DNA of 64,000 nt from Halichondria panicea (lineage: Eukaryota; Porifera; Demospongiae; Suberitida; Halichondriidae), in the NCBI RefSeq assembly GCF_963675165.1, contig NC_087377.1, positions 14,380,198 to 14,444,197 of the forward strand, written 5' to 3'. The notes under the pieces were generated by a model. It was not told where the DNA came from and made no database searches. It worked only from the letters and a program-made list of their open reading frames with translations. Shown here one piece after another: positions 14,396 to 39,865 of the stretch. Each line of letters begins with the position of its first letter. Within the stretch, counting starts at the first letter, position 1. A program made the translations under genes and the position numbers.

Positions 14396-17300
14396 AAAGA
14401 GTACTGTTCTCCACAAAAAAGGAGGAAATTACAGAGTCCCTCTACAGAGCACATTGTTCCTATACTTCAAGAGCTGCTCCCAGAAAGAGTGCATGTGAAG
14501 TTGACAACTGCCTCTGCCTGTATACCTTGCTTCAGAAGTGCTGACAAGTTGTTAAAGCTTAGAAAAGAAGTAAGAAAGAAGGAAAAGGAACTGCAACAAC
14601 AGGTGAATCATCGAAAGGATGGTTTGATTTACTATCTATGGTTTAATATATGCTGTATAGGGTCCTATTAGCACTGGACAGTGCATATAATCCTAATAAA
14701 TGACCTGTATTAGGTTGAGCAAACATATGGACCAGGAGAGAGACCTGAATCACCACCAACAGAAGAGGGTACCCCAAGAAGGATAAGAAAGAGAACTCTC
14801 GCTACGAACATAGGGACACCTAGGAGTAAGCGTATATGTCTCGATACCCCAACAAGACGGTCACTGCAGTCAATGATGCCCACAGAATCTTCACCTGCAG
14901 TTGCTGTAAGTTTTATTGGTAAATGACTGACTTAATTTATTAACTATATTTATAGATCTTTGTCAAGGGGGAAAAAAAGTCTCGAGCCTATATTATCAGC
15001 AAGGCATCAGGTTTCAAGAAACTGGTGTGAGGTGTAGCTCGAAGGGGGCATGCTACCATTGCTAGACAAGTTTTAGTAAACATCGATGTTTTGTAATAAA
15101 ATCGCTCAGAAAGTACATCCAGAAAGAAATGACCTTCCTTTGCTCGAAGAAAGAAAATTCATTGCTAAGAGGAAGATCTGTGGAGAGTGTGAAACGTTTC
15201 TCGTGGAATTTGTTGGCTAAAGAGCTAGAGAGCAAATTAAGCTCCTACACTCTATGGTATTTTGAGTGTTTGTGTGGACGTTAGGCGGAGGAAACGAAAG
15301 AGAAAGACTACAAAACAGAAATCATCATCAAATACTGCTATGCTGGGTGTATGTGCTGCTATATTGTTACGCCATCGCAATCAGAAAATGAATCTGCTCC
15401 AGCGAATCATCACATTGATTTTCCACAGTGGACACGCCTCAAAACAGGTGTGTATTTATTATAATTATGATGGTTAGTTATTATTATGTTTAAAACAGGT
15501 ATACAAAAGACTACAGAAGTTGCAGTTGACCATGTCACGAGACAGCACACTATCTTTCTTAGATGAGATTGGGTTAGATTATGATTCACCAGTGATCGAA
15601 TGGCGGGGGTGCATAGAGAATGAAATGAAGACAAGTCAGGTATGACCATGCATGCATGCATGCATGCAAGTGTTACAACAATACATATTATACTTATACC
15701 TTCACAGAGCACACTAGACGAAGATGCACATGTTGTACACTCTCCTGTACATGAAGTTTGCAATGATTCAGAAGCATCTCAGCAAAGCCATGACGTGCTT
15801 TCCGAAAGTGATGAGTCACAAGGTACCAATGGGTCTGATTCGGAAACAGATGCCTCATCACCAGACAAATCTTCTTGTTCTTCTTCTAGCTCCAGAGATG
15901 TTCTATCCACTACATCATCAGAATCATCATCAATAAATCTTGATGATATTCTAGGACCTCTGCCTCCATCATACCCTCTCACTTTCCCTTCGTTCAAACT
16001 GGTTGGCGATAATATCGACAAAGAAGTGAAACCACGTGATATGAGAAGTGATCATCAAACCAAGTCTCTGCACTATTTCCATTCTTATGCTGTTCTTGAT
16101 CGAATAGATCTATCCGGTGTGAGTGATATCGTGACCATACCAGAAGTAAGCGAAGTAAATTTAACCGACCTCCTCCCAACATCAAGTGACGATGAAGCAC
16201 TCGTGTCAAATTACGCAGTGTTTATGTTTCGTGTTTTGAAAAGGCACATGCCCTTTTTTAAATTCCGAGGAGTAGTGGAGAGACATATACAACATGAGCA
16301 TTCATATGAAATGAGTCAGAAATCAACAGTTGTAAGCTTATAATTCAACATGCATGCAAATTTTTTCACTATATACGCAGGTTCCTACAGGAATTGATCT
16401 CAAATCTGAACAAAAATACGAGGAAATGATACCTTTATGTCAAAGGCTGCAGGAGCAATATGTCCCAAGACTTGAAACAATTGAGAATGTGAGCATTCTA
16501 AATGAAGAAGACCAGCAGTTACTGATACCAATGTACCATTTTCATCCGATACTATTTGGTGAGCATTACAATTATACTTTGAACAGTTGTTGACCCTTAA
16601 ATGCAAATAATTGTGCTATAGGGGGGGACCAACTGACAGTTGCACGCATCAGAGGTTGTCGGAGAATAATGAGTAATTCTCAGACTGATCTACAACGACT
16701 GAAAGGCCTCATACCTGTTGTAGAAGACTGGCATGCCAAGCAATCATTTTTGGGGGTAAGACGTGTTAATTGGTGCTGTATTATGCATTTAATATATATA
16801 ATTATAGTTATACATGCAGACAATAATCATTATTAATCACATACATGCATGCATGCACATGCAGGTTGCATGGATCCGCCTGTACTCTGCTTCCTCTGGT
16901 ATCGATGGAGGAACACTGTTTCAATTGAGGAATCTCATAAATAGAAGAAATGTCAGAAAGCTGCCCCAAAATGATTTGAGTGCCTGTGAAGATTTTTTTA
17001 ATGCGGTCACCGATGCGCATATCTTGACCGCTGCAATGACATTCTTCAATATGTCATCTCTTGATGATCGACCTTCCAATACATACTTTCCTGAAGGGTT
17101 CAACGACTTAACATCTCTTGAAAAAAGAAAAGTGCTGATGCTTGCAATTAAAAAATTGACAAAAAAGTTTGTAAATGTGTCATTGATGAACAAGAAGGAC
17201 GAAGAGCAACAGATGGATGGTGTGTACGAGTATGCCTCTGAAACTCTTTCACTTGGTTTGCTTTATGCAGAGTTCAACGATGCCATTAAGGAGGGTGACG

Positions 17301-17866
17301 GGGAAAGAATAATCAGATGTTGGAGATATTTTCTTCTTATATTCAAATCAGCTCGGAGGAAAAACTACGCCATTGAAGCATTCACTCTTCTTGCTCAAGA
17401 ACAATACTTGCTCAGTCCACGCCAGGCACTTCAGCTGAAGTGGAGTCGAACAATTAATACTCATGGATTTCCGGGAAAAAACATACCTTGTGATTTACAT
17501 ATGGAACACTTAAACCGAGAATGCAAAACGGCTCTCTCTGGACTAGGTTCGAACATAACTGACAAGTCAATTCAAAGAATTGGTCAGTCAATTGGGAAAA
17601 CTGTCGAAATGTTAGAAAACTTTGACGAGATCAACCTAGTAACTAAGCAGTCCGGCTTTCACACCAGTCGATCTTCTAAAAAAGATGTAGAGAAATTGGT
17701 AGGACAACTGTTTGAAGTATCTAAAGTCTTCACAAATCAGCCTGCAACTGACCGTTGTCACCAAAATTTCAAAACCTTTAAGAGCAATATGGTTCAGTCT
17801 CTCAAACATGATAGTCTAAAACAGTGGATGATTGAACAGTTTAACAAACTACTATATATATATTAA
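14381..17866 (+). CDS. DUF6589-type transposase-like protein; 5' part damaged, 3' part intact
   Basis: Multi-exon gene. Exons 14381-14602 and 14714-14905 are open. The next exon (from 14956) hits an in-frame TGA and frame changes until about 15300, although family blocks remain readable there (K-R-F-S-W-N-L-L-A-K-E-L). From G-V-C-A-A-I-L-L-R onward the frame is good: exons ending near 15448, then 15500-15640, 15709-16333, 16381-16560, 16622-16756 and 16865-17866. Conserved blocks include V-Y-K-R-L-Q-K-L, F-L-D-E-I-G, G-G-D-Q-L-T-V-A-R-I-R-G, D-G-E-R-I-I-R-C-W-R and H-G-F-P-G-K-N-I-P-C-D-L plus M-E-H-L-N-R. DUF6589 proteins are expanded in animals and fungi and are thought to be transposon-derived. 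An acidic, serine-rich linker lies in the middle. The stop is 19 bases from the stop of the convergent helicase gene. It may be a recently dead copy. Confidence 0.6.
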
Positions 17867-17885
17867 AACATCATTAAATTTTACA

Positions 17886-19219
17886 TCAAAAAGAGCACTT
17901 GGCACACATACATACACACTCACAAATGTCACAACATTGGCACAGTTCATTTCCAGCATATAAATGTTCAGTATATCCATTAAACTTTTTAAAAAGCATA
18001 GTCCTTCTACATACACTCTTGTTAATGCAATATTCTTTCATATCTTCGGATAGATCCCTTGTAACTACATCTGGAACTTTATGATAAAGAATAGCATGGG
18101 CTAAGAGATGATCCCGCCCAGCACGTCCTGATTCTTGCAAATACTGTTCTACATCGTCTGATGCTCCCCAGTGCATAATTCTTCTGACATTGGAGCAGTC
18201 AATGCCCATTCCAAAGGCTATTGTGGCAATCACAACTCTAAGTTGTGAATTAGGGATTGAAAACGAGCGTATGATTTCCTCCTTTACATCAGGTTGAGTG
18301 CAAGCAGAGAACATATCAATAAGTCTAAATTGAGCCATATCAGGAGCACTCATAGGGTTTAAAATCTCTTTTCCAAGCCGGTTCTTAAAATACAGGTAGA
18401 TGTGTGTCATGCTGTCGTATGTTCGGCAGAAGATTATAGCTCTGTCTGTCAATTGCCTGTATCTCCTGACTTCTTCTATAAGAGGGGCAAATGTTTCTTC
18501 AATCGGTGGAGGGTTTACTTGAACTATGTATTTGATGTTGGGTTTGTGAGGGGACTCGGAGATTATAACAGGGTTGATTAATCCAACACTCTTACAAATA
18601 GCTTTTCGTGTTTTGATTGTGGCGGTAGCAGTTAGACTCATCACTTTAACACCTTCAGGCACCAAACTGCAAACTTCTCCAAGGTTGGCAAATTCAGTTC
18701 GAAAAGCTTTACCCCTAAAAATGTAAGAGGTATAATTTATAGTGAGTTACATTATGTGAAACTCACCATTTTGTTACACAGTGTGCTTCATCGATAACAA
18801 GGGCAACAAGATTTGCTTGGAATACAGGACTTTGAATATTATCTCTCCACTGTAAATCTGTGAGCAGGTATTCTGGACTCATGTATATGAGTTGCTTTCT
18901 ACCACTGGATATTTCGTTGAGCCCTTTTTCATCACAATTTCCCACATAAACTGTCAGTCATGGCTTTCACTTGATCTTTCATCAGTGCCACAAGAGGGCT
19001 CACTACAATGACTAATGAAGAGCCAGGTGATTTTCTGATCTCGTCGAACACTCCAGGTAGGACACAAAAACATAGAGATTTCCCACTACCAGTAGGTAAG
19101 CTGACAAACACGTCTCTACCATCTACTAAGCTTCTTACAGCTAGCTCTTGACTGGGTTTCAGCTCCTTATATCCTAGCTTTATAGTAGCGACACGAATTG
19201 CAGCAGTTAATACTTCCAT
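17886..19219 (-). CDS. RecQ-like DNA helicase, frameshifted between motifs I and II
   Basis: Superfamily 2 ATP-dependent 3'-5' DNA helicase of RecQ type. On the minus strand: start at 19219 (M-E-V-L-T-A-A-I), a Q-like region (E-L-K-P-S-Q), Walker A L-P-T-G-S-G-K-S, motif Ia (V-S-P-L-V-A-L-M-K-D-Q), DEAH box I-D-E-A-H-C, T-A-T-A motif III (S-L-T-A-T-A-T), motif IV I-I-F-C-R-T-Y, motif V A-F-G-M-G-I-D and motif VI Q-E-S-G-R-A-G-R-D, then a cysteine cluster at the C-terminus (zinc-binding-like). An intron of about 50 bases lies at 18715-18767. Near 18955 a short deletion shifts frame between A-M-T-D and V-Y-V-G-N-C-D, so this copy is probably inactive unless the assembly is wrong. It is tail-to-tail with the DUF6589 gene. 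Confidence 0.75.
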
Positions 19220-20205: not shown

Positions 20206-20502
20206 ACAAAGAACAGAAAAAGGAGAGGCTCTCTGCGAAGGAGGCTAGGCTAGCCTAATACCGTGCAAGAAAGAGTAGACAATGAAAACGGCTAAAATGA
20301 AGGTAGAGTTTTAATTGTATGTAGTAGATCTCTATTCAGTTATATAGATCTATGATAAGATCATTGAGATTTCTGATTGAACACCATGCATAGCATGGAC
20401 TAACAGTAGAGCAGTCTCACAACCCTAACCCTAACCCTGGTCTCCAAAGTATGTCACCTTGAATACCGGTACGCGGTATAGTTTTGTTTGGCACAGATGC
20501 TA

Positions 20503-20636
20503 GCTTGATTTTTTTTGCACAAAACTCGCCCTGAAATGCGGCCAGGCCCACTCGCTATTTCGTAATCAGTTAAAATTAAAATGCACCAGCAATAGCAAGT
20601 GGCCGCATTTCAGGGCGAGTTTTGTGCAGGCTAGCA
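20503..20636. repeat. Fold-back element with GCACAAAACTCGCCCTGAAATG arms
   Basis: Two arms of about 40 bases (containing CAAAACTCGCCCTGAAATGC) pair around an AT-rich loop. A diverged half-copy (CAAAACTCGCCTTGAA) is at about 57600. No target duplication was identified with certainty. Confidence 0.7.
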
Positions 20637-21171
20637 ATCCGTGCCAAACTGCCAAATGGCCAGTATAATATTGGAGGTGGCCGTACTTCAGAGAGCCAGG
20701 AGAGCCAGTATACTGTACACTTACCATAATGATTCATTATCTTCGAGACAGAGCCGCAAAATAATTAGTCAGAGTAAAGATGCTTTTTAGCAGCAAATAC
20801 TTTCTGAAATTCAGCCTATTCCGACCAAACTACACTGTTCCAAGGCATGCATATTAACAGGAATCTACAGTACATCTAGCTAGCTATAAGATCGATCCTG
20901 CACTCATGATCGTATTATATTGACCGACTGATGCGGAAAATAGGTCCATTGTGGTGGCTAATTCATTCCTCTATCAGTAAGATACTGTATCAAGCTGATT
21001 GACAGCTGCATGCAGAGGGTCATTCCCAGGGAATTTCCCTAAGTCATAATGATAAGGGCCATGGTCACAGTGCATGGCTTTATCCCACGATCTGTATAAA
21101 GGGGCTATTCCCAGGGAAAATCCTTAACCACAATATGCATTGTTATGTTCACACCATGCACACAGAAACTA

Positions 21172-24100
21172 ATGTTTCATCTGGGCTGGATCGTACTAAC
21201 TGCCACTTCAGTTTTAACAACTCAGTCTGAAGGTGATCCTCCTATGTAATAATATTGTCACAAATGGCGCAAGCTAATTGGTTACCTTATTTCACTTAGG
21301 GACTCAGCATGCAGATCAAGGTCTTCTATATGTTGTGCTTATATATAGCTAGAGTCATAGTAATGATGATGCAGTGCATCATTATAAATTAAGCTTTTAT
21401 CTTGCTCTAGCAGCTACCAATAGCTAGTACTCTAGTGCAGAAATAACTACTAAGTAAATCAGTTGCAGGCCTCCTCCAACGGTAACTATATGAGATTGCG
21501 AGACTTCCTCGGGGTCTCTAGAGACCTTGGACTCCTGTAACTATGGTATAGTGTAATTCACATTGCTGTTTGCTTTTGAAGGTGCAGATCCATCAGTGTC
21601 TCTGACTGTTGAGGGAGGAGGGAGTCTGGTTGGTGAACAATGTCCTGGAACTGTCAAGATTTTGTGTTATGGAATAAATTTGTCACTTTTACGGTGGAGG
21701 TACAACGGGAACATAGATATATTAAGGTCTGCCTTTCCCTCAGATACCACAGCACCTTCTTCTGTTAATACTAATAATCCAGCGTTCGTAAGAGTGGAGC
21801 TGCTATCAGTAGCACAGGATCCAGCTAATCTAAATTTTGCTAACTTTTCATCTGAGCTTGTTGTAAACGTGTCAAATCTAAGAACAGAGAGTGTAACAAA
21901 TATTACATGTGGGGATCCAGGAACTTCCAAAATGATTCCAGTGGATGTTGAGATTATACAACAAACTGAGCCTGAGAGTCCCATTGGAATGAATGTGACA
22001 GCTCTCTATGAATTTGGATCCTTGACTGATGCCATTGTCTCTTGGAAAAAGTTGGTGAGTAAGATACATCAATGCTCATGTAAAATTGTAAATATCTCGT
22101 ATAGGAAACACGATGTCCAGAATTTCAGACCTTCTTGATCTATCAAGTCACACTGTTGGGCTCTGGTATTGTCACAGTAAATCACACAAGCTGTGGAGAA
22201 GTGTGCATAGTCAACTTTCAGAACTTTTCCGATGCTATTGAAGTGTATAGGGTGTCACTGTTTGCTGTTAATGCCATCGGGGCAAGTGAACTTGTGGAAT
22301 ATCCAGCCATTATCGGTATGTCAAAATTAATTATGTCTTCAATTATAGGGACCGGCAATTTAATACATATGTAAAAGCTATGAAATACCCTAAGGCCATA
22401 ATTATAATTATCTTACTATTAGCACAAACTTTTTTCAGTGAAACAAAGCAGCTTCTACTTCACACCTACTTTCCTCTCAAACGATTGTCTGTTTGTTTGT
22501 GAGTGCTTCTCAAATGGAAGTCTGGATACAGACAGTTGCAATGTGCTGTACGCAACTGACTCGATGTACAGGGATCCAATGATGATTGTTTCTCCACTCA
22601 ATACGCAATTTGAAATAGCTGAAATAACTACTGACAGAGTCTATTTTTTTGAGTTCTCTGTGTCTGTGAATGGCACTCTGGTTGTTAGGAACAGGCTTAC
22701 TGAAAAAGCGATATCAAGTGAGTATCACACAATTATAGACGTTAACTAATCTTCACTGTTTCAGGTCCGAGGTTCAGTACAGTGGTTATTGTTTTCCTTG
22801 CTCTAACCATTTTGCTTATCACTGTCGGAACAGCATTTGGTATAGGTACATTAAATTTCCTAAACTATGTCTTGCACATTAATTTTTGCAGTTATCTGTG
22901 TTGCTAAGCAATTGCAAGGGGTTAAAGCAAAGATTGTTTTGTTTATGGTATGTCTCTTTGGAATGTTGAGCTTGATTTGTCTAATTGTTTTCTTCATTAT
23001 CACTGGTGTTCAACAAGGTAAGTTCTTACTGAGTTGAATTTACTTTCTAAGATGTTTCTCTGTAGACACATGCAGTCTGGATTGGAGCAGAGCACGTGAT
23101 GCATTGGTCATTGTAGCCTTTCTGTTTGCTCTATTTGGAAATGCTCTTCTGGTCTGTTTCCTGCTTGTCTCTTGCCAACAAAAAAGTAAGGCATCTTTAA
23201 TTCTCAAATTAATAGCAATCAATTTAATTCGTGCCTGTGCCTGTTGTCAGAGTCTGGCCGGATGAATTTGCAGTTTAGTAAAGATTCCCAGACCAACATG
23301 TATAGGTAATAATTATAGTATAGTATAATATTAATTACAATTAATATTTTTGATTTCCTCAGTATCTCAGAACAAACGGACGCAATAGCTGAGGTTAGTA
23401 GTTGCTTTTCTATCAAATATAATAATTGTGCATGCGTTGCATATAGTAAAAACAGATTCGTTATAATAACTCAAATAAAATGCATCATTTGAAATTTAAT
23501 GTACTATAGAAATAACATAAATTTCTGTCATTTTAACTAAACTGCGACCCATAATAACATATGTTTTTTTACTGTGTATAGGGTTTGACTAGCAATTCTA
23601 AAGCAAATCCTGAGAAGACAAATACCGCTTCAGGGGCCAAGGATGTAATAGCACCTTCAGAGAATATGGAGTCTAGTAAAAACAAGAAGAGTGAGTCTAA
23701 GAAATTCACTGTCTACAAAGTTGTGGTCAGACTTGAGGATAGGTGGTACCTTGTGTTCAGAAGGTGATCAATGCTGTCCTTTGTTTGATCATGATGTATA
23801 AGGTGTTGTCACTGCAGGTACCCTGAATTTGAAACTCTTTTTGGCGAAATTAAAAAGGTGTACCCATCCTTGGATAAATTGCCAGGGAAGAAAGTCTTAA
23901 AGAACAAATTTGATCCGAATTTCATCGACGAACGTCGCATTGGGCTACGTGATTTCATTATCAACCTCATGAATGTATGCTTCAGTGTAAAATAGACAGT
24001 ATAGTGACTTGTAGGTATGTAAGCATATTCACACTCCCAGATCCCCGACATCCTAGAGTTTCTCCCAGTCCGTGAATTCCTGGCCATCAACGACCCACGT

Positions 24101-27100
24101 TCAGCACTCCCCATCAACGACGAGCCGGTAGACGAACAGAGAGTACAAGAGGCGGACAGGGTGAAGCTTGGTGAGAAGGAGGACACCACTGCCAAGATCA
24201 CTGACCTTGACCTGCTCAAAGTTATTAGGAAAGGAACCTTCGTGAAAGTAGATCCGGTCCTTTATAGAGCTTACAAACCTATTATGATGTATATCTTGCT
24301 ACAAATCACCTATCACCAGGTTAAATTATCTATAAGCACACAGTCATGTATAAGGTATAGCACGTGCTAGACCTAGCTACAGCAGGGAACTATTAATATG
24401 AGCCTGTGCATTTGGTATCCATGTTGATATGTTGCTAGCTCTATAGTTAGCCAATGAGAAGTGAGATGATTATATGCATTCAGCTATAATTATATGGTTA
24501 TATAGTGTCCCTCGTGCAGCGCCCTATAGGCCTTGTGACACTATAACATAACACATGAACCAAAAGCATGGTGCAAGGTCCTCGCTCATAGTCCATCTTC
24601 GTGGCTTCTTACTCATTCTGTATATGTCTCCCTATTTTATGATTGGCACATAAGCAAGCCAGGTTTGTTACGAATTGTGTATTCGAAATTTGCATGCAGT
24701 GGTCCAGAGAGTTTGTATTATTGATGTAGACTATACATTCATTATTTTGACGCGCTAGGGGCAGAAGCAGCTATAGCTGGAAATTAATTTTGCATTACCG
24801 TATAGCGGGGAGGTGCAAAATTCCGAGGGCAGTTATAATTACGCGAAAATGATAACAGGATAAACTCCCACACACCAGTATTTCACATGCAAAGCTATAT
24901 TGGTGGGTGTGATTCCTGCATGGCATTGAAACACGAATACTATAGAACCCACGAACATTTCGGCTGGAGGGCTCTGGAGCCAAATAGCAAAAATTTGCAT
25001 TTACCACGAAAAATTTCTCGCTATACAATAATTTATTACTCTTGTGGCATGTCATCACTGCACATGCATTAGTCGCCGTGTGCATGTATATAGAGCTTCG
25101 CTGTGGGATGAGAAGTTGTTCAGAGTCTTGTGTTCATGTTGAGTACCCAGGGGCGTAGCTATATACATTTACCAAAGGGGTTTCTGAAGGGATAAGGCGG
25201 CGCAGCGCGAATAATTTGGGGACCACGCCCATTTCCGGTTCCACACCTCTTAATTATACTGGTTACACCCCATATGGCTGGAGGGAAGCATTTTTGATAA
25301 GTCGTAGCTTCAGCTCTCCTCATGATCTCTTAAACTTTTTAGTGTAAGTACAAATGTACTACCAGGATCAGTACTAGACTCACTGGCCACTCCCATCATC
25401 ACTATCTTGAGGATTGGGACTGGTCAACTGCCAATCTGCGAGTTGTTTTTGTTGAATTTTAATTAGTTGCATGACATCATCTTGTAGTTTGTGCGGTTGA
25501 CCAAAGTTGCGTAACTATCAAGTGAATGTGGGTTATGTCCCGTGGTTTATCTAACACAACATAAGACCCAGCCCAACTACAACGAATTACGTGGGCGAAA
25601 TATGTCACATGACATTGCTTCTGCACTGTGATTGGTCATTACCGATTTCAGTAATGAGAACAACTCGCAGATTGGCAGTTGACCAGTCCCAATCCTCAAG
25701 ATAGTGATGATAGGAGTGGCCAGCGAGTCTAGATCAGTATCATTGACATTGACAGTGGGTATGAGCTTAGCCTCGATCCCAGGCCGCTCTTCCTCGAAAA
25801 GAGGGCCTGGTATCAACTGTTTGCGCATGCGCCACATAATCCCCATAAACTGGGGACTCCGGATATCATCGTATAATGCTCAGTAAAACAATGACGTCAC
25901 AACAAACGGAAGTGGATTGAAGAAAGTGGATAGAAGCGCGATTGTGAAGGTTTCTAGCCCGTGTGATAGCATTCTATATAATAGCTACCCTTAGTCTGCT
26001 ATGTTAACAAAGGACTCACAGCCTGCAACAGTGTGGATAACAATCCTCTGAACGGAAGAAGGCTGACAATAGCCTATATGGATAGGCCACGCCCATCTGA
26101 CACTAACCTTGGTGAAAGTCGACTCTATCAGAAAGAAATTGCTGCTGTAACCAATACAGCTCTGTCTCTAGCTAGCTAGCTAGCTATATACAGTAGAACC
26201 TCGATTATCCGGACACCTTGGTTCCAGAAGCAGGCTGGATAAGTGAATATGCCGGATAATCGAATAGATAAACCACGCCTTGATCCACCCACTTTATTGA
26301 TAAACAGCAGTGCCGCATGGTTGTCTGCGCATGCGCAGAAGATAAGCAGGCATGTCTCCATGGTAACAGCTGCAACGCGCATGCGCGTTTGAGGGACACG
26401 CCCATTTTCTGATCTGATAACAAGAAAACTGCCAAGCCGGATAATCGAGGTTCCGGATAATCGAGGGCCGGATAATCGAGGTTCTACTGTAGCTCTGTAT
26501 CTGACTTTATAAACTGAGTATTCTTTGTCTGTATGTGTTATTCAGGATATAATTCGGGTAAAAATTCAGTGTAATGGGAAATTACGGGGAAATTATCCAA
26601 TAATTTTGCGCATGCGCAAGCAGTCAGTAGCAGGCCTCTTTTTTGAGGCCTTGTGAAGGAGGCTAGTATGAGCTCTGAGGTTGGTGGCTGAGAATCAGAT
26701 TGTGGTGAGACTGCATGTACATGCAGTCTGGAGTCTGAGCATGCAGTAGAGGAACTGGGCTGACAATTAGGTCTCTTATCTTGGATTGCAGAAGCTAAAC
26801 TATAGTATTAATAATAGGCATTGAAATAAATCCAGGCTAGATATCAATCAATACTCTTGCTATAGTCTCCAGCCATTAGCTATAGTATAGTATATACACT
26901 GTAATTAAAATACAGTCTGGTGTCTGACTCTGAGCAGTAGTAGAGGAACTGGGATGATCTTCCATGGTCTCTTATCTTAATTGGATTGCAGAAGCTGAAC
27001 TAGTAATAGGCAGAATAAATACAGACTGGATCAATCTACTCGTGGTCAATATTAGCTTGATTCCAGGCCGATTAAAATACGGCCTGTTACCTATTTCATG

Positions 27101-30014
27101 GTGATAATGCGCATGCGTTAGTTCATTAAACTGAGGATGCCCTTTTTTTCTCTAGTCTATTTTCTATATATCTTTGTACATCAGCTTAGCTCTCTATTGC
27201 GTTGTTCCAGAAGGCTTTCACACTAGTCTGAAGCCAGAAGAGGCTCTCATCTACCTCTATGACGGTTGTATAGTCAGGATGTCTTACCTTGGATCTGTAC
27301 AGGATATATGGGAAGTGTATGGTGCCTCAAACTGCTACTTGCGAAGACAATCCGGCTATAGTACCATCCTAGACGTAGATGAGAGCCTCTTCTGTCTTAA
27401 AGCCTTCTATAGACCAACGCAATAGACGGCATAAGCCACAGCTTCACAGAACTCAGTCATATAGAGATAAAGTATTACGGAACGTAATATTATTCTTAGT
27501 AAACGGACTAATTTCTGGTGTAATTTACTAAGGTTTTACATTCGTAGTACGATTACCCATATTCTGTGTAATTTGAAGCGCATGTGCACTATCACCCCTG
27601 CAATAGGTACCAGGCCGTATTTTAATTGGCCTTGAATCGAGGCTAGGTCAATATTAACTTCAGCACATGATTAGTCCCACCCATTTTTCAGCAAGCAAGG
27701 GGGTTTCTGGGCAACTAGGAATCCATTAAGCTACTCCCCTGGTACCTTTACTGAGTGTATAGAGCGGAAACGCTGCAGTGGAGAGCAGCTGGAGCATATT
27801 TAAACCAATAAGATCGACTCATTATACCACCAAAGTTAATGATTAAAATAGCCTCGCTTAGTTTTGTTCGAAATAATAACAGTGCCAGACTAATCTTGCA
27901 GATTAGGGACTCGCTTTATTCATCCCAATCGCATCATAATTATATATTCTTATTCACGTCTTATTCACTATATAGCTGCACACACAACCACACACTCTAA
28001 CCACACATGCATACCTTCCCCATGCTTTCACAGGTCTACCTGGGTCGACACAAGGAAACTGGTGCTTTCTATACCATCAAAGTCCTGCAAAAGGAAGCAA
28101 TCAGTGAGGTTGAACTCACAATGGCCAAGAGAAATATCGCGATCCACCCGTTTCTAGTAGGCCTACATTACTCCTTTCAGACGAGGACTAAGCTATATTT
28201 TTTGTTGGAATATGTGAACGGTGGAAAGCTGTTGTTTCATCTGCAAAGACAGAAAAATAATGCTTTCGATGAGCCCAGTGCAAGGTGAGTAGTCAGACAC
28301 CATTTTTATGCTAAGCGGTTTATTTATGTAGCTGTATAAACTGCAAATCGGTCTGTCTGTTAGCTCTATAGTATATTATTTAAACTCCCAATCCTCAATG
28401 TACATAAAGTGTAGATGCCTCTAAAACTGCTCTGCATAATATTATAGTTCAAGCCAATCTAGCAATCAAGTTATTACCATTGATCCCACCACCGTATGAG
28501 TTGTTCCTAAGTCCATGGTGTGTGTTACACAGTAAAAACATATTCGTTATAGTAACATGAAACGCATCTTTTGAAATTTTGTTATACATTACTGAAAAAG
28601 TACCGCGGGTGCTGAAGGTGCCAAAGCTACACACATTATAATAATTATCATGATGAACATTTTTGCATTAATTAATTTTGGTGCATGTATAGGCAGAATC
28701 CAGATCACAGGAAGATCGCCCACGATTGTTTTTAAAAACGATCTATGCCAAAAGTTCAAGTCTAACTGCATCAGAGCCTTCAGCTCTCTTCTCACTCTTG
28801 CAGCTATATATATACCAATAGCTAGCGTTCTAGTGCAGAGCTATAACTACTAAGTAGAGTAGCAACACTCGGTGAACAAGTTTTGCTAAGCACTATTCTG
28901 AAAAGGCTGCAATGGCATTCCAAGTAAGCAAAACTAGGCATAACTCGAGAACGAAGCATTATTTTACAAATCCACGAATTAAAATCCAAGAAAACATGGC
29001 TAGAAGCCTATATATACAGAAACTCTTACTTGCACTTCATTAATAATCCTTGAGCAGTCTACATATACTCACACACACATGCACATGCACACACAAACAC
29101 ACTACCGTATACCTCGCTAGCTTGCGCATGCGCACCGATCGAGGCATAATGACACTAAAATAAGATGATGCATCTAAGTGTTTTTGCTGCAAAAACAATA
29201 TTCTTTTTCTGATTATAATGTAAGTGAGCAAAATATTATTCAAGTGGCCCTATCAACTCTGGTCAGCTTACATTTGAGACTTTAAATTAAACCTAAAAAA
29301 TATAAAGGTGCATACAGGACTATAACATTGCTTGAACATGTAATTACCCGTTACAGATTCTACGCTGCTGAGATCACCTCTGTCCTCGGGTACCTACACA
29401 GTCTCAGTATTATCTATTGGGATCTCAAACTTGAAAATATTCTGCTGGATGCTAACGGGCACATCATGCTAACAGACTTTGGACTCTGCAAGGAAGAGGT
29501 CAAATTTGGAGAGACAGTAAAAACTTCTGGCACTCCCGAATATCTAGCCCCTGAGGTGCTCAGAAAGCAAGAGTATGGTTACAGTGTCGACTGGTGGTGT
29601 CTGGGCGTGGTAATCTACGAAATGATGTACGGGCTGCCACCGTTTTTTTCTGAAGATGTTACTCAAAGGCACACCAATATTATTCAGAAGTCTCTAAAAC
29701 TGCACACTCACATTTGTATCACTTCCAGTGCTCAAGACCTGCTCGAAAGTTTGCTGCAAAAAGACAAAAATGTTCGATTAGGCGATCATAACGACATCAA
29801 GTTTCACTCATTTTTTAAGTCTATCAACTGGGATGCCCTGTTTAATAAGCGATTGAAGCCTCCGTTTATCCCTTCTCCGGTAAAGGATGCCCTCAAACTT
29901 GGACATTTTGGATCCGAGCTTACTGCCGTGGCTATTTCTGACGCGCAGCTACACGGGACAGAGGGTGTGCCATGTGTGAGCATTGCTGACGACACTTTTA
30001 ATGTAATGAACTAG
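21172..30014 (+). CDS. Receptor F: Ig-like/FN3 receptor with three membrane segments fused to PX domain and SGK3-like (pseudo)kinase
   Basis: Fourteen exons sum to 2886 nt, in frame, 961 aa: 21172-21232, 21582-22054, 22105-22315, 22439-22717, 22765-22839, 22892-23017, 23066-23185, 23251-23305, 23363-23393, 23582-23763, 23818-23974, 24041-24247, 28034-28284, 29357-30014. Signal peptide 1-20, Ig-like 21-178, FN3-like 179-248, third ectodomain 249-341, membrane segments in exons 5-7. PX domain about 515-605 (F-R-R-Y-P-E-F, F-I-D-E-R-R-I-G-L) and AGC kinase about 646-905, in SGK3 order. The glycine loop reads R-K-G-T-F-V-K (two glycines lost). K675, D765, D-F-G (783-785) and A-P-E are kept, but the helix-C Glu is K691 and the H/Y-R-D Arg is W764. 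The phenylalanine of the activation-loop F-C-G-T-P-E-Y is missing. So it may be a weak or pseudo-kinase. The phase-0 joint before exon 10 equals that before the tail exon of receptor A, supporting fusion. Alternative: a separate SGK3-like gene starting at the ATG at 23667. Confidence 0.75.
25376..25732. mobile_element. Inverted-repeat element in intron 12 of receptor F
   Basis: Arms of about 70 bases (CTCACTGGCCACTCCCATCA... left and its reverse complement right) enclose about 200 bases with no coding potential. It lies inside the 3.8-kb intron between the PX and kinase exons. Confidence 0.7.
25768..26665. mobile_element. 898-bp TAGCCTCG-type element with 9-bp target duplication
   Basis: It starts TAGCCTCGATCCCAGGCCG and ends GGAAGGAGGCTA-like (AAGGAGGCTA), with inverted similarity continuing through GCGCATGCGC. 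Direct repeats gtatgagct lie at 25759-25767 and 26666-26674. A separate TA-flanked element is nested at 26191-26489. Confidence 0.75.
26191..26489. mobile_element. 299-bp Tc1/pogo-like miniature element, TA target duplication
   Basis: Inverted ends CAGTAGAACCTCGATTATCC are bordered by TA on both sides. The CAGTAGAACCTCGATTATCCG type of end is typical of pogo/Tigger-like miniature elements. It is nested in the larger 9-bp-duplication element. Confidence 0.8.
27053..27645. mobile_element. 593-bp TAGCCTCG-type element with internal palindrome
   Basis: It begins TAGCTTGATTCCAGGCCG, ends GGCCTTGAATCGAGGCTA, and is flanked by perfect direct repeats ggtcaatat at 27044-27052 and 27646-27654. Inside, 27185-27430 is a second imperfect palindrome of about 240 bases (arms C-T-A-T-T-G-C-G-T-T-G... 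and G-A-G-G-C-T-C-T-C-A-T-C-T-A-C), so one element sits in another. Confidence 0.8.
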
Positions 30015-31574: not shown

Positions 31575-31670
31575 GACCACCTCTGTCCTCGGGTACCTAC
31601 ACAGGCTCAATATTATCTGGACGCTAACCGGTCACTTCATACTTTCGGATATTTCAAGGTTTTTGATCAT
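31575..31670 (+). pseudogene. Fragment of the SGK3-like kinase exon
   Basis: The sequence a-c-c-t-c-t-g-t-c-c-t-c-g-g-g-t-a-c-c-t-a-c and then a-g-t-a-t-t-a-t-c-t-like words repeat the start of the last exon of receptor F (29370-29470), with deletions that remove the catalytic loop. It is a short duplicated scrap. Confidence 0.65.
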
Positions 31671-32033
31671 AAGATAATAGTGAGAATATAATTCTGCTTT
31701 TTTGTTATTTCTTCTGCATGCTGGAATTTCAAAGTGTGTCTGAGATCAATTCAAGAGCTGCATGGCATTGGACTTATTGTTGAATAAAAAAGAAGTGTGA
31801 CTGTGTCAACGTAATCATACTCCACTCTCTTATATCCAGGTCAGTGGTTTCTCTTGCCAAACCATACGAATTATTCGCTTCCATTTTCACCTTTGTAGCT
31901 CCATTACTTCCCACTTTATAATAGCTCAGTTTTAATCTCATTTCCTCATTTGGTCGGGAACGTTGCTTCTTTGACTCTCCATAAGACTCATTAGGAATTT
32001 GTTCTTTTGATTTTACACCCGACTAGGGGTTGG

Positions 32034-33242: not shown

Positions 33243-33270
33243 TAAATTGGCGACAAGGAGTTAGAACTCT

Positions 33271-36200
33271 ATGATGGCTACAGGACTGCTTGGGCACCTC
33301 GAGCAATTCGATCCAGCGTTGGAGGAATGGCCGCAGTATGTGGAGAGACTCGAACAGTTTTTTGTTGCGAATGATATCACTGGAGATGGTAGTGCTGTGA
33401 AGAAGAGAGCTACTTTTCTCGCCGTAGTGGGCCGTAGTGCCTACAATCTGCTGCGAAGTCTAATTGCACCAGCAAGGCCTGCAGAGAAAAGATTTGAGGA
33501 GCTGGTGGAAGTGCTTACTGCACACTACAGTCCGAGGCCTACCGAAGTCATGCAACGTTTCCGATTCAACTCTAGAGCGAAGAAAGAAGGAGAGTCTATT
33601 GCTGACTATGTAGCTGCGCTGAGGAAGCTAGCCGAATTTTGTAATTACGGTGCTGCATTGGACAAAGTGCTACGTGACAGGCTAGTGTGGGGAGTCAAGG
33701 ACACCTACATACAGAAGAAGCTGCTAGCAGAACGAGAGCTGACATTGGCTACGGCTATTCAGATTGCTCAAGGTTCTGAGACTGCAGAGAAGAACCTTCG
33801 TGAGATGGGAAGCGAATCCCATAAAGAAGGAGTACATTACGTCCAGAAACAGACGCCGAAACCGATTAAAACTAACTCGAAGTGTTATCGATGTGGCAAG
33901 ACGAGTCACAGTGGAAATGACTGCCCGTACAAGGACTTTGTGTGTAGAGGATGTCATAAAGTGGGACACTTGCAAAAGATGTGTCGAGCTGCCAAGGGAC
34001 GCCCAAACCCGAAGAAGTTCCCTCGACATGACAAGTATAAGAAAAGGGCTGGAATAAACCAAGCAAGAGAGTCTGGAGAATCAGATGACGAAGACTTCCT
34101 GCTGATGGTAGAAGAAGTTGGAGGAATCCACAGGATCTACCAGCCCCCAATAAAAGTACCCGTGAGTATAGAGGGTACTACTGTGTGTATGGAACTAGAC
34201 ACAGGTGCCTCAGTATCTCTAGTATCAGAGTCACAGTACAAACAGTTGTGGCCAGGGAGGAGCTTAGACCCATCTGATATCAACTTACAGACCTACTCAA
34301 AGGAACCCCTTGTAGTAATGGGAAGTTTTGATGTTGAGGTTGTGTATGATAACAAAAAGGTGACCTTACCTCTTGTTGTTGTTCAAGGGAATGGACCTTT
34401 GTTGTTTGGCAGGAACTGGCTAAATGCTATTAAGTTGAATTGGTCTAACATTCACTATACCCAAGCTCCAGGTTTACAGGACTTACTGGCCAAGTACCCC
34501 GATGTGTTCCAGAAAGGACTGGGTACGTACCAGGGACAAGAAGCCTCCCTTGTAGTGGACGCTGATGCTGTTCCCCGTTTTAACAAAGCCAGACGTCTTC
34601 CATATGCTATGCGAACGAAAGTTGAAGAGGAACTGGAGAGGCTGGTTCAGGAAGGCACTCTGAAGCCCGTGGACTATGCTGAATGGGCCGCACCAATTGT
34701 GGCAGTGTTAAAGAGTGATCGAACGAGTGTGAGAATATGTGGCGATTTCCGAATGACAGTTAACCCCGTTTCTAAACTCCATCGTTACCCCCTGCCGAAG
34801 GTGGAAGATTTATTTTCAACCCTGGCTGACGGAAAGATCTTTACTAAATTAGATCTGACACAAGCTTATCAACAGTTAAAGCTTGACACCCAATCTCAGA
34901 ACTATGTGGTAATCAACACCCTAAAAGGGTTGTTCCAATACACGAGATTACCTTTTGGAGTGTCATCAGCCCCTGGCATTTTTCAGAAGACCATGGAGAC
35001 CCTGCTACAGGGTATTGCTGGGGTAGTGGTGTATTTGGACGACATTTTGATCTCTAGTGCAACCGAAGCGGAGAACCTGAAATCACTCGAGGAAGTGTTG
35101 AAACGCCTATCCGAAGCTGGTTTGCGAGCCAAACGAGGCAAGTGCACGTTCATGGCTCCATCTGTCGAGTTTTTGGGTCACCTGGTTGACGCTAAGGGTA
35201 TCCGACCCTTACCTGAGAAAGTCCGTGCTGTCCAGCAAGCACCTACCCCTACCAATGTGACGGAACTGAGGTCCTACATTGGATTGATTTCTTATTATGG
35301 GAAGTTCCTACCGAATCTAGCCACTCGCTTAACACCATTGTACAAGCTGTTAAACAAAGATGTGCCATGGGAATGGTCATCTGAGCAAGAACTTGCTTTT
35401 AACAGGTCGAAACAGCTGCTGACATCAACAAATCTGTTAGCTCATTACAACCCCCAATTACCTATTGTTCTGGCCTGCGATGCCTCTGCATACGGAATTG
35501 GAGCCGTACTTGCTCACCAAATGCCTGATGGTACCGAGAGACCGATAGCCTATGCTTCTAGGACTTTGAATTCGGCTGAAAGAAATTACTCGCAACTTGA
35601 AAAGGAAGGACTGTCCTGTGTTTTCGGAGTAAAGAAATTCTATGCATACCTATTTGGTCGAAAATTCACTCTAATTACGGATCACAAACCGTTATTGAGC
35701 CTGCTGAGTGGACAGAAACCAACCTCATTACAAGCCTCCGCAAGGATTCGTCGATGGTCATTGGCACTGTCGATGTACGAGTACGAGCTGAAGTTCCGAA
35801 ACACTACAGCTCACGGTAACGCAGATGCTTTGAGTCGTCTGCCCTTAACTGACACTGTTCCTGATGACCGAACACCACCAGAACTGGTGCTCTTACTGGA
35901 ACATCTCGATTCCTCACCGATCACGGCTGCACATATCAAAGAGGCTACCAGACGAGACCCAGAACTCTCTACTATTCACCAGTATGTGCAACAAGGATGG
36001 CCACACCGTTCCGCCATGGAAACCAGTCTAATGCCCTTTTATGAGCGACGAGAAGAACTTTCAGTACATGATGGTTGCTTGCTGTGGGGAAATCGTGTGG
36101 TGGTACCCAAGACCTACCGAGGTGATGTGCTCGTACAACTGCACGAAGGACATCCTGGCACCACTCGCATGAAAGGACTATCGCGTATGTATGTGTGGTG

Positions 36201-37263
36201 GCCTGGTATTTCGAAAGACGTCGAAGAGACGGTACAAGATTGCATTCCCTGTCAACAACAACAGTCAAAACCACCTGTTGCCCCACTCCATCCTTGGGCT
36301 TGGCCTACACGCCCGTGGGCCAGATTGCATATCGATTATGCTGGTCCCATTCACGGACAAATGTTTTTGATTATCATTGATGCCCATTCAAAATGGATTG
36401 AAGCAATTCCAACATCTGGCTCGACATCCCGAGTAGTGATCGAAGAACTACGGTTTTTGTTTTCTCAATTTGGCCTACCAGAGTGTGTTGTGTCTGACAA
36501 TGGCACATGTTTCACTAGTGCAGAATTCAAAGGATTCCTGAAGAAAAATGGTATCAACCAAATTCTGTCTGCCCCTTATCACCCCTCTACAAATGGCCTG
36601 GCTGAACGAGCAGTGCAAGTAGTTAAGAAGGGACTTAAGAAGGAAACAAAAGGTTCGATGCGCAGTAGACTTGCAACGGTGTTATTTGCTTACAGGTTAA
36701 CTGCACAGTCAACCACTGGACAATCCCCAAGTGAACTTTTGTTAGGTCGTCGACCACGATCTCGTCTAGATCTGCTTAAACCGAACACAGCAGAGAGAGT
36801 TGAACGTCAACAAGCAAAACAGGTGAAACAACACGACAACCGTGCTCGCGAAAGAAGTTTTGAGCCCGGAGATCTGGTGTATGACAGAAATTACCAGTCA
36901 GGAAATCGTTGGTTACCGGGTGTGATACAGGAAAAGACAGGACCAGTATCGTTTCGAGCGAAGATGCAGAATGGTCAAGTGCGAAGGTGTCATGTGGACC
37001 AGGTTCGGAACCGAACAGTAGACGAACCTACCGAGCCAGAAGAGGTCCCTATTCCGAATGCAATTCTTCCTGACGAATTGACCACACCGTATGCACCTCA
37101 AGCTGATAGTACTCCTGGAAACAGCTCCCCGTCACCTGAAGTTGGTGTAGAACCACCTGTCGACGTCCCTAGTCAAGGTGTTGTCTCAAAACCTGCAACT
37201 GCGATTAAAGTATACCCTAAGCGTAACCGTAAGACTGTGGATCGATATGAACCTAAATGGTAG
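33271..37263 (+). CDS. Gag-Pol polyprotein of Ty3/Gypsy retrotransposon (single ORF)
   Basis: 1330 aa with Gag and Pol in one frame. Order: Gag/capsid-like region 1-205; two zinc knuckles about 208-250 (C-Y-R-C-G-K-T-S-H-S-G-N-D-C and C-R-G-C-H-K-V-G-H-L-Q-K-M-C); aspartic protease about 295-390 (L-D-T-G-A-S); reverse transcriptase about 430-650 with Y-L-D-D; RNase H about 730-860 (D-A-S-A-Y-G-I-G-A, T-D-H-K-P-L, N-A-D-A-L-S-R-L-P); integrase about 950-1190 with an H-H-C-C finger (H-E-G-H-P-G ... C-I-P-C) and D-D-E residues (H-I-D-Y-A-G, V-S-D-N-G-T, N-G-L-A-E-R). No envelope gene. The length and single-frame layout are usual for invertebrate K02A2.6-like Gypsy elements. The ATG at 33271 follows the primer site by about 20 bases. 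No frame break seen. Confidence 0.96.
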   Translation: MMATGLLGHLEQFDPALEEWPQYVERLEQFFVANDITGDGSAVKKRATFLAVVGRSAYNLLRSLIAPARPAEKRFEELVEVLTAHYSPRPTEVMQRFRFNSRAKKEGESIADYVAALRKLAEFCNYGAALDKVLRDRLVWGVKDTYIQKKLLAERELTLATAIQIAQGSETAEKNLREMGSESHKEGVHYVQKQTPKPIKTNSKCYRCGKTSHSGNDCPYKDFVCRGCHKVGHLQKMCRAAKGRPNPKKFPRHDKYKKRAGINQARESGESDDEDFLLMVEEVGGIHRIYQPPIKVPVSIEGTTVCMELDTGASVSLVSESQYKQLWPGRSLDPSDINLQTYSKEPLVVMGSFDVEVVYDNKKVTLPLVVVQGNGPLLFGRNWLNAIKLNWSNIHYTQAPGLQDLLAKYPDVFQKGLGTYQGQEASLVVDADAVPRFNKARRLPYAMRTKVEEELERLVQEGTLKPVDYAEWAAPIVAVLKSDRTSVRICGDFRMTVNPVSKLHRYPLPKVEDLFSTLADGKIFTKLDLTQAYQQLKLDTQSQNYVVINTLKGLFQYTRLPFGVSSAPGIFQKTMETLLQGIAGVVVYLDDILISSATEAENLKSLEEVLKRLSEAGLRAKRGKCTFMAPSVEFLGHLVDAKGIRPLPEKVRAVQQAPTPTNVTELRSYIGLISYYGKFLPNLATRLTPLYKLLNKDVPWEWSSEQELAFNRSKQLLTSTNLLAHYNPQLPIVLACDASAYGIGAVLAHQMPDGTERPIAYASRTLNSAERNYSQLEKEGLSCVFGVKKFYAYLFGRKFTLITDHKPLLSLLSGQKPTSLQASARIRRWSLALSMYEYELKFRNTTAHGNADALSRLPLTDTVPDDRTPPELVLLLEHLDSSPITAAHIKEATRRDPELSTIHQYVQQGWPHRSAMETSLMPFYERREELSVHDGCLLWGNRVVVPKTYRGDVLVQLHEGHPGTTRMKGLSRMYVWWPGISKDVEETVQDCIPCQQQQSKPPVAPLHPWAWPTRPWARLHIDYAGPIHGQMFLIIIDAHSKWIEAIPTSGSTSRVVIEELRFLFSQFGLPECVVSDNGTCFTSAEFKGFLKKNGINQILSAPYHPSTNGLAERAVQVVKKGLKKETKGSMRSRLATVLFAYRLTAQSTTGQSPSELLLGRRPRSRLDLLKPNTAERVERQQAKQVKQHDNRARERSFEPGDLVYDRNYQSGNRWLPGVIQEKTGPVSFRAKMQNGQVRRCHVDQVRNRTVDEPTEPEEVPIPNAILPDELTTPYAPQADSTPGNSSPSPEVGVEPPVDVPSQGVVSKPATAIKVYPKRNRKTVDRYEPKW

Positions 37264-37512: not shown

Positions 37513-38407
37513 ATACTAAAACCTACAAGGAAATATAATAATATATGTGTAGTGCCCTGGCCAGTGCTATCATGAAATGCATGGTGATTCCCATGAAATT
37601 AGTAGCAGAATATAAGCAGAAGATTCAACAGATGTTTGAATATTGAATTGTTGAGGGTCTTTTGGTTGCGACTGTTGTCTTATCTGAATATCAATAGGGA
37701 TCATCTGGTAGTTTGCTGGATCTCCGCATCTGATTTCATTAATGTGCTGATCCACAATCTATGAGATGTCGAGAGTAAGAGTTGAAGAAAAGTTTCCGTA
37801 AATTGGGTTATTCTGTAAAACTCCTCTCAACTCAACAGAAATGAAGGCTGAATTCAATGCAATTTGAGTAGAGATCACACTATCAGGGTAAATTGAATGG
37901 ATATTTGTTAGTGACATTGTAACTCTAGCGCAAAGTAGTTAGCTGCACTCCCTCACAGAACAGTCTGACAGTTCCAGGACAGTATTCACCAACCAGAGAC
38001 TCACTCCTCCCTCAGCAGTCAGAGACACACCTGCAACATGATTACATGTAGCTGATCACAATAAACAAGGAATCTTACTCATTGCTCTGCTTTTTCCAAC
38101 AGTGAAGGACAATAAAACAATATTCATTAACAACTGAAGTACTCCCATCTTACTTGAGGTAGAATACTTAACTTAGCTAACCAAACTTTGTGCAGAGTTT
38201 CCAAAAAACAAGCGATACAATTCAGGTGCAGTTTACTCATGCAACTATATCAATTAATTGATGTGAGTTATATTTATATGAGTGAATAGCTGAAGAAATT
38301 ACAGTTGCACAAACTTCAATATAGTTTTGCTTTCTACATGGTTATGATGAATTTTATAAGTATACACACTAGTAAGCAACAGCACACAGCATGTCTTCGA
38401 TTTGTAT

Positions 38408-39865
38408 TTATAAGTTAACACTGCATGGTCCATAAGCTTGGTTAGTGTTCATTTCAATCTTTTCTTTGGGTGACACCTCCTCATAAATAGGATCAGCTGG
38501 TACAGTGGGTCCTACATTTATTTGTCCTTCAGCTGCCGGGGAGAACACTGTCTTTTTACGCATGACCCAGTATGTCAAGAGAGCACCACCAGCACAACCA
38601 GAAACCATTGCCACAATGAATGTTACAGTTGTACATATCACAGCAACTTGATTGATAGTAAGAGAAATTTCTTTTACAGAATCTGTGGATGCAGTAAAAC
38701 GAACAGTTATCATTTCATAATTATACTGGGCAGTACATATACCTTCTCTTTTTCTACACACAAACTGGGAAGGATCTGGAATCCACTTTGCTTCTCCCAG
38801 AACATTGCTACAGGTGCTTATTTTCTCCTCGTTAGGAATCAGTCCATCATTGCACTGATAGCTGACGTTAGTACCCAACCTGAGAGAGTTTGATGAAGAG
38901 TTATCATAATTGATTAGTCTGCCATTGGCTGTTGACTCGGGAGTATCACAGAGCATCAAATCTTCTGTAACTGATTAACAAGCACCCTCATCATGTGTAT
39001 TACATTCATTTTAACATGACATCACCTGATAAAAGGTAATCGTGGAAGACAGAAAAACTGTCTCCCTTTGTATTCCTAGCCTTAATAGTGAGGAAATAGC
39101 AACTTGTCTCTCCTCTTGAAACCGGGAGCTCCACTACTGTTTGGCACTTCATGGAGCAAGTCGTACCATTGACCCACTTTGTTACTATTGAGTTGGCTAT
39201 AATTACAGTGATCATGTAATCAGTCTGGCAATCCGTCTAAATTAATAGAATTTGAAGTTAATTGTTATACTGATATGACTTCACTCACAGATGGTGTCCA
39301 TGTAATTATAATGCCTTTTGGATTATCAGTTGTGTTTACTGTAATCAACTGAGATTCTTCTGGTTCTTTAATGGTCACATTCACATTGAGACTTTGATAA
39401 ATTTCTGGATCTCCACATGTGATGTCAGTTACGTTGTGCTCCTGTAGCCGTGATAATTCAACAGTGAGAACTGAAGAGAAGTTACCAAATCGCTGGTCTG
39501 CCAAGCTTCGTGATGCATGTGTTAGCTGGACATATTGGAAAGGGGACTCAAGGCTCAGATGTATAGGAGCTGTGATGGTATCGTCTGGTGCAAATGAATG
39601 AATCACATGCCGGTCCTCTCCATTGTATGACCATGTCAAAATAGTGAGGTCCACTCCCTCACACAACAGTCTGACAGTACCAGGACAGTGTTCACCAACC
39701 AGACTCACTCTTCCTTCAACAGCCAGAGAGACACTTGTAAACACTAACCCTAAGAATTTTGTTAGTTTTTAGGCCATAGCCAATAATAATCTTACCAGTA
39801 GTTGTTGAAAATATTAGTCTGAGAAGAAGAATGAAGAAAATTATCAAATGTACAGTGCCCGTCAT
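38408..39865 (-). CDS. Receptor G: Ig-like, FN3-like, sushi, one membrane segment, short Y-E-E-V tail
   Basis: Minus-strand exons 39865-39796 (signal peptide M-T-G-T-V-H-L-I-I-F-F-I-L-L-L), 39749-39289 (Ig-like), 39236-39026 (FN3-like), 38970-38408 (sushi, membrane, tail); sum 1305 nt, 434 aa, in frame. The Ig-like exon has C-P-G-T-V-R-L-L-C, W-S-Y-N-G and I-T-C-G-D-P. The sushi/CCP module (about 250-318) shows L-C-D-T-P, V-S-Y-Q-C-N-D-G, S-T-C and W-I-P-D-P ... F-V-C. A hydrophobic segment (about 350-378) is followed by R-K-K. The tail has P-I-Y-E-E-V and I-E-M-N-T-N-Q-A-Y-G-P. An extra short intron inside the last exon would also keep frame. It looks functional; the partner is unknown. Confidence 0.85.

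Follow-up and report, generated by a model that had tools for sequence, protein, structure and literature searches.

A putative receptor of the sponge Halichondria panicea fused in frame to an SGK3-type PX domain and probable pseudokinase

A multipass receptor gene of Halichondria panicea appears to continue in frame into a PX domain and kinase domain of SGK3 type. Fusion of the receptor with PX-SGK is strongly supported by sequence comparison, and the two parts very probably form one protein. The tail is quite probably an SGK3-derived receptor pseudokinase. The overall account that we lean towards is of a multipass receptor with a duplicated SGK3-type PX-kinase tail, fused once and now a pseudokinase, which may serve in routing to PI3P endosomes or in docking. 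AGC kinases are normally soluble, and no description of this gene or of any receptor with a PX-SGK tail was found in searches of one open-licence literature library. Receptor pseudokinases are already known; the PX-SGK tail is an unusual module among them.

Gene structure and the joint between receptor and PX domain

The gene was analysed in a stretch of 64,000 nucleotides (the window) on a contig of 18,138,809 bases (C1), and searches were run against a genome of 131 Mb in 39 contigs. Gene evidence consisted of sequence and NCBI gene models, such models being predictions that can merge neighbours. The 14 predicted exons (Table 1) form one open GT-AG splice chain, which remains in frame over the predicted 2886 nt when exon 12 ends at the donor at 24241. 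With the donor at 24247, which fits the SGK glycine loop and is the counterpart of the exon-12 donor in both complete paralogues, the chain measures 2892 nt and encodes 963 aa. The donor at 24319 is that of NCBI isoform X2 of LOC135351084 (P0001, an uncharacterized predicted H. panicea protein of 994 aa), which matched the window chain at 97% over 100% coverage. P0001 differs from the 963-aa chain by an extra upstream exon, by the use of 24319 in place of 24247, which adds 24 residues after the glycine loop, and by an exon-5 donor two codons earlier. Its first exon joins exon 1 at 21166, giving a coding span of 20282-30014 in 15 exons. The ATG at 21172 that had been proposed as the gene start does lie inside exon 1, but the NCBI model starts one exon earlier.

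In the spliced protein, Pfam profiles identified Pkinase (2.8e-57) and PX (6.8e-10). The best PDB sequence match of the PX-kinase part was SGK1 (2r5t, 9.1e-105), which was also the nearest solved structure by fold (Foldseek). By Pfam and PDB matches the PX domain directly precedes the SGK-type kinase domain, in the order found in SGK3 (PX-SGK).

Table 1. Coding exons and intron 9 of the fused gene, in window coordinates.
Feature	Position	Strand	Basis or remark
First coding exon of the NCBI model (MKTAKMK)	20282..20302	+	Window encodes the P0001 N-terminus here, with GT next to it on the 3' side
Exon 1, hydrophobic start / signal peptide	21166..21232	+	Signal peptide by eye; contains ATG 21172 of the original prediction
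Exon 2, candidate Ig-like domain	21582..22054	+	C..W..C in 12 homologues; Pfam Big_4 in 2 of 12
Exon 3, second ectodomain module (FN3-like in the original prediction)	22105..22315	+	Splice chain
Exon 4, third ectodomain module	22439..22717	+	Splice chain
Exon 5, membrane segment 1	22765..22845	+	Hydropathy; last two residues absent from NCBI isoform
Exon 6, membrane segment 2	22892..23017	+	Hydropathy
Exon 7, membrane segment 3	23066..23185	+	Hydropathy
Exon 8, cytoplasmic linker, 55 nt	23251..23305	+	58, 52 and 64 nt in F1, F3 and L033
Exon 9, cytoplasmic linker, 31 nt, phase 0 end	23363..23393	+	40, 31 and 49 nt in F1, F3 and L033
Intron 9, 188 nt, with dispersed repeat insert and AATAAA at 23474	23394..23581	+	53-55 nt in complete paralogues
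Exon 10, linker then PX start	23582..23763	+	Splice chain, Pfam
Exon 11, PX domain	23818..23974	+	Splice chain, Pfam
Exon 12, PX end, kinase start, glycine-rich loop	24041..24247	+	Alternative donors 24241, 24319
Exon 13, kinase N-lobe, AIK lysine, alpha-C Glu to Lys	28034..28284	+	Splice chain, alignment
Exon 14, kinase C-lobe, YWD in place of HRD, truncated hydrophobic motif, stop	29357..30014	+	Splice chain, alignment

When the genome was searched with the PX-kinase part, matches that cover the PX domain appeared at three places: the window, F1 (C1:14.01 Mb) and F3 (C1:14.22-14.24 Mb). A receptor lay directly upstream at all three. For F1 and F3 a chain of 14 exons could be built whose phases equal those of the window gene, equal phases being a condition of the exon search. 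The NCBI protein of F1 (LOC135351103, P0002, 980 aa), obtained independently, agreed with spliced F1 except at the exon-5 donor. At L033 (C1:14.47 Mb; LOC135351367, P0003, 551 aa) the receptor and linker are present and the coding sequence stops shortly after the first PX strand. The receptor-PX joint is present in the NCBI proteins P0001, P0002 and P0003, from the window, F1 and L033 respectively. Chance open frames were ruled out by the same exon order and phases at three loci, and an assembly error by the same structure at these loci. The in-frame joining of a PX and SGK3-type domain to the receptor, as originally predicted, is supported by the splice chain, Pfam, the paralogues and the tail-exon slot described below.

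Intron 9 was measured at 55 nt in F1, 53 nt in F3 and 43 nt in L033, so that no promoter and first exon would fit between receptor and PX exon in these copies. The greater length in the window is due to a dispersed short repeat (23449-23568), which gave 63 rows in the genome, some being the two strands of one place, with many matches at 78-86% identity. A promoter in the gap before the PX exon was rejected, the extra length being this repeat in an otherwise short intron. The AATAAA lies within the insert, which makes a short receptor form possible in the window copy. Exon 10 contains no Met in F1 and F3 and one in the window, at residue 29, that is missing from both complete paralogues; an in-frame stop stands directly before exon 10 in the window, F1 and F3. 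A soluble product with its own N-terminal start, a trait of SGK3, could accordingly begin in the window copy at that Met, but has no start in F1 or F3.

Between the first nucleotide of exon 10 and the PX domain lie 120, 138, 84 and 147 nt in the window, F1, F3 and L033. All differences in linker length among the four loci are multiples of 3, and intron differences are not limited to such steps (F1: -290, 4, -26, 2, -133). A genome search with the linker returned only these four loci at E <0.01, each with the receptor directly upstream, and one further chance-like place at E 0.5. Linker dN/dS was 0.52-0.59 with intervals that include 1, so these ratios do not demonstrate constraint on the linker by itself.

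An SGK3-like transcript starting independently at 23394-23667 had been named as the finding that would undo the original prediction. The one Met in window exon 10 offers a place for it, but that Met is absent from F1 and F3, and an independent SGK gene is unlikely in view of their intron 9 of 53-55 nt and Met-less exon 10. The broader alternative, that a receptor and an SGK-like gene are neighbours which were co-duplicated and merged by gene prediction, is highly improbable. The window Met and the AATAAA of window intron 9 would suit it, as would kinase fragments a few kb downstream of other receptors, as if once neighbours, but F1 and F3 have neither room nor a Met before the PX domain, the linker changes in steps of 3, and L033, a receptor with no kinase, bears the same linker in its NCBI model.

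Three membrane segments, as predicted, were recovered: hydropathy shows them in each of the three spliced copies, and two AlphaFold models have helices at these positions (pLDDT there roughly 45-78). The layout of a receptor kinase, with an extracellular part, spans and a kinase fold (Pfam, Foldseek), is present if the topology is as we infer it from the hydrophobic start and the three spans that follow, with the ectodomain outside and the tail in the cytosol. For the ectodomain, no Ig family was matched in the whole spliced protein by Pfam at E up to 10. Pfam Big_4 matched two of 12 exon-2 homologues, with a best value of 5.9e-4, the C..W..C pattern is conserved among the 12, and an exon-2 profile run against the PDB gave three matches up to E 10, none convincing and none an Ig entry. 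The Ig-like label for exon 2 is weakly supported, as is the FN3-like label for exon 3, for which no Pfam profile matched in the spliced protein. AlphaFold gave a mean pLDDT of 39.6 for a receptor-only protein; in the fused protein pLDDT was <50 over most of the ectodomain and about 70-96 in the PX part.

Origin of the fused copies and the receptor cluster

The C-lobes of the fused copies and of L032, a locus just before the window, form one clade with support of 100/100 on a stem of 0.71 changes per column in a 31-row tree. The fused C-lobes group with sponge canonical SGK copies (91/85, not starred in the tree). L032 comprises the last two kinase exons; in the 9.5 kb read, no receptor or PX exon was found, although a short piece of exon 2 and another fragment of kinase were. 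Because the fused C-lobes form a clade at 100/100, the best explanation of these sequences is that the fusion arose once and was then copied. Among the 33 proteins listed from at least 7995 candidates for a full-fusion query, the best four were from H. panicea and the rest covered at most 30% of the query; no fused relative outside H. panicea was among these matches. A second protein search, queried with PX and kinase, admitted lengths up to 1.75x the query, a range outside which fused proteins fall. The last exon of a canonical SGK was located in the same genome at C1:17683549-17684241 (-), with YRD, TFCGT and FAGFSY intact. The surrounding stretch that was read at C1:17.68 Mb, which contains unread bases, yielded neither PX nor N-lobe exons for it.

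The place of the joint was compared with receptor A, which is cut by the left window end (window 1-2523, +) and has its tail exon at 1984-2523. The phase series before that exon is 1, 2, 0, as in exons 7-9 of the fused gene (phases by eye), which agrees with the predicted identity in position and phase of the joint before the PX exon and the joint before the tail of receptor A. Several YxxL/I/V motifs occur in the receptor A tail exon, together with one ITIM-like VLYDKV. In L029, judging from the visible frame, the protein ends shortly past the membrane exons, and L030/L031 (LOC135351061, P0004) has a long repetitive tail. Together with the fused genes, these different tails indicate a tail slot that is filled differently from member to member.

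Window exons 1-3 share 97, 93 and 96% identity with L029 and 67, 79 and 81% with F1, whereas exons 4-7 share 71-84% with L029 and 93-96% with F1, the exon limits of L029 in this comparison being approximate. By these per-exon identities the window gene is a mosaic. A genome search with the receptor part gave 102 rows, all on C1 and most within 13.88-14.54 Mb. This receptor cluster is tandem, uses both strands, covers about 0.65 Mb and holds, by our reading, more than 50 matches of exon-2 size; C1:13.88-14.54 Mb is a candidate recognition locus.

Further receptor exons related to exon 2 were seen in the window on the minus strand at 8934-9275, 37588-38028 (frames broken), 39358-39735, 44238-44615 and 51031-51405. 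Exons related to exon 2 and to later exons lie at 56211-57550 (+).

Kinase relics are also scattered through the cluster. Five fragments of about 43 residues (query 265-306, 67-69%) lie at C1:14077639, 14099133, 14159617, 14168451 and 14493423 (+), four of them 3.6-3.7 kb downstream of a plus-strand receptor exon start. Within the window, broken SGK-like kinase fragments lie downstream of receptor A (4992-5718, +) and downstream of the fused gene (31579-31671, +), the former in places closer to canonical SGK than to the fused copies. Such a distribution points to a wider joint spread of receptor and SGK copy, followed by the decay of most copies, and is equally compatible with the two having started out side by side before they fused.

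Kinase residues and constraint on the tail

The fused kinases were aligned with 26 canonical PX-SGKs from animals, in which 171 columns are nearly invariant; 54 of these are changed in one or more of the three fused copies (window, F1, F3). The glycine-loop Gly is replaced by Val in the three readable copies. In all four copies, L032 included, the alpha-C Glu is Lys or Arg, a four-residue gap follows alpha-C, the HRD Arg is Trp and the next Pro is Leu, the T-loop is altered and the hydrophobic motif is truncated. In the window copy the T-loop (canonical TFCGT) reads T-SGT with a one-residue gap of uncertain placement, and the C-terminus ends FNVMN in place of FxGFSY. All four copies retain the AIK Lys and the HRD Asp; the window and F3 also retain DFG, which reads DLG in F1 and L032. 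As a whole, the catalytic set (glycine loop, AIK Lys, alpha-C Glu, HRD, DFG) is incomplete in the window, and both SGK activation sites (T-loop, hydrophobic motif) have lost their canonical form. The canonical SGK last exon of the same genome keeps the ordinary residues in the same alignment. N-lobe length also varies: F3 carries an insertion of 18 residues (54 nt) compared with the window.

Kinase dN/dS in the three pairs was 0.37 (0.23-0.53), 0.42 (0.29-0.63) and 0.57 (0.37-0.85); since every interval lies below 1 the kinase part appears to be under purifying selection, with the reservation that gene conversion could lower or distort these pairwise values. For the PX domain the values were 0.37, 0.57 and 0.40, one interval reaching 1.45.

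From these comparisons we conclude that one SGK copy was apparently captured, underwent fast change and is now kept as a pseudokinase. The sequence speaks against the working receptor AGC kinase of the original prediction, through the loss of the alpha-C Glu, the HRD Arg and the hydrophobic motif in all readable copies, the altered TFCGT and the DLG of F1 and L032. SGK3 is moreover activated through T-loop Thr320 and hydrophobic-motif Ser486 (PMC6824681). The retained lysine and aspartate, with DFG in two copies, are what an active enzyme has in its favour; they could allow some weak kinase activity, and a fully active receptor-type AGC kinase is improbable. A somewhat stronger competitor, although still unlikely, is that the fusion is real and the kinase a decaying passenger tail of no function, heading for the truncated state of L033. 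The changes at nearly invariant columns, the F3 insertion, the 24-residue insertion in the NCBI window isoform, the kinase relics elsewhere in the cluster and the L032 kinase exons, where decay is visible, all accord with such a course, but three 14-exon reading frames are intact and the kinase dN/dS intervals exclude 1 in every pair, subject to the distortion by gene conversion noted above.

Proposed role, comparable receptors and mobile elements

Under the favoured reading of a constrained pseudokinase tail, an SGK module would have taken over the tail-exon slot in one receptor of a tandem cluster, receptor and tail would have been copied together, and the kinase would then have turned into a pseudokinase. 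With three membrane passes, the tail would face the cytosol. Its PX domain, with RRY, K and RR kept, would bind PI3P after uptake and hold the receptor on endosomes, and the pseudokinase could serve as a platform that docks partners of SGK/AKT-type signalling or acts as a decoy for them. Binding of an outside ligand would in this way lead to endosomal sorting or competition in place of phosphorylation. As the kinase has lost key catalytic parts, the tail probably sorts or scaffolds signals and does not make them; for endosomal routing by the PX domain in particular, we regard the chances as even. SGK3 is recruited to endosomes through binding of PI3P by its PX domain, and its activation proceeds via Thr320 and Ser486 (PMC6824681).

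A wider and more tentative proposal is that a recombining cluster of recognition receptors swaps tail modules, one of which is the constrained SGK3 pseudokinase whose PX domain leads to PI3P endosomes. Recognition genes would be expected to show the pattern seen here, in which a large tandem cluster combines varied tails with mosaic copies. If the proposal is true, an AGC-group receptor pseudokinase would wire a locus of self/non-self or immune recognition to endosomal PI3P, and if the receptors act in recognition, a PI3P-binding tail makes the link between recognition and endosomal sorting testable in a sponge. An AGC kinase that became a membrane receptor tail, lost its catalytic features and is still constrained would be a case, dated by paralogues, of an enzyme turning into a receptor module.

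SGK3 itself, e.g. Amphimedon P0154, resembles the fused gene in having a PX followed by an SGK kinase domain, and shares the PX motifs RRY, K and RR.GL that are kept in the fused copies. The fused copies differ in being joined to a receptor, in having no start of their own in F1 and F3, and in the loss of catalytic and activation features. ErbB3 and PTK7 are receptor pseudokinases, in which an ectodomain and membrane part are combined with a catalytically impaired kinase fold that serves as a platform; they belong to the tyrosine-kinase group and have a single pass, whereas the fused gene has three passes, a PX domain and a kinase fold of the AGC group. The Alr allorecognition receptors of Hydractinia are clustered, related transmembrane proteins with varied cytoplasmic tails, a likeness to the sponge cluster, which is known from one assembly. 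To our knowledge no Alr tail has a PX domain or kinase.

Multipass receptors with a C-terminal kinase arose repeatedly (PMC12716839): choanoflagellates have GPCR-TKL/K, and GPCR-TKs occur both in them and in sponges. GPCR-TK, GPCR-TKL/K and GPCR-PIPK share the multipass plan with C-terminal kinase (PMC12716839). They have seven passes and a TK, TKL or PIP-kinase, whereas the fused gene has three passes, a PX domain and an AGC-type pseudokinase.

Mobile elements were also seen in the window. An uninterrupted frame of 1332 codons at 33265-37260 (+) contains reverse transcriptase, RNase H and integrase and is a retroelement. Three other frames are probably pieces of mobile elements: 16808-17863 (+), matching DUF6589; 17889-18746 (-), matching Helicase_C with a weak RecQ zinc domain; and 12183-13172 (-), with a weak Tf2-1 SH3 match.
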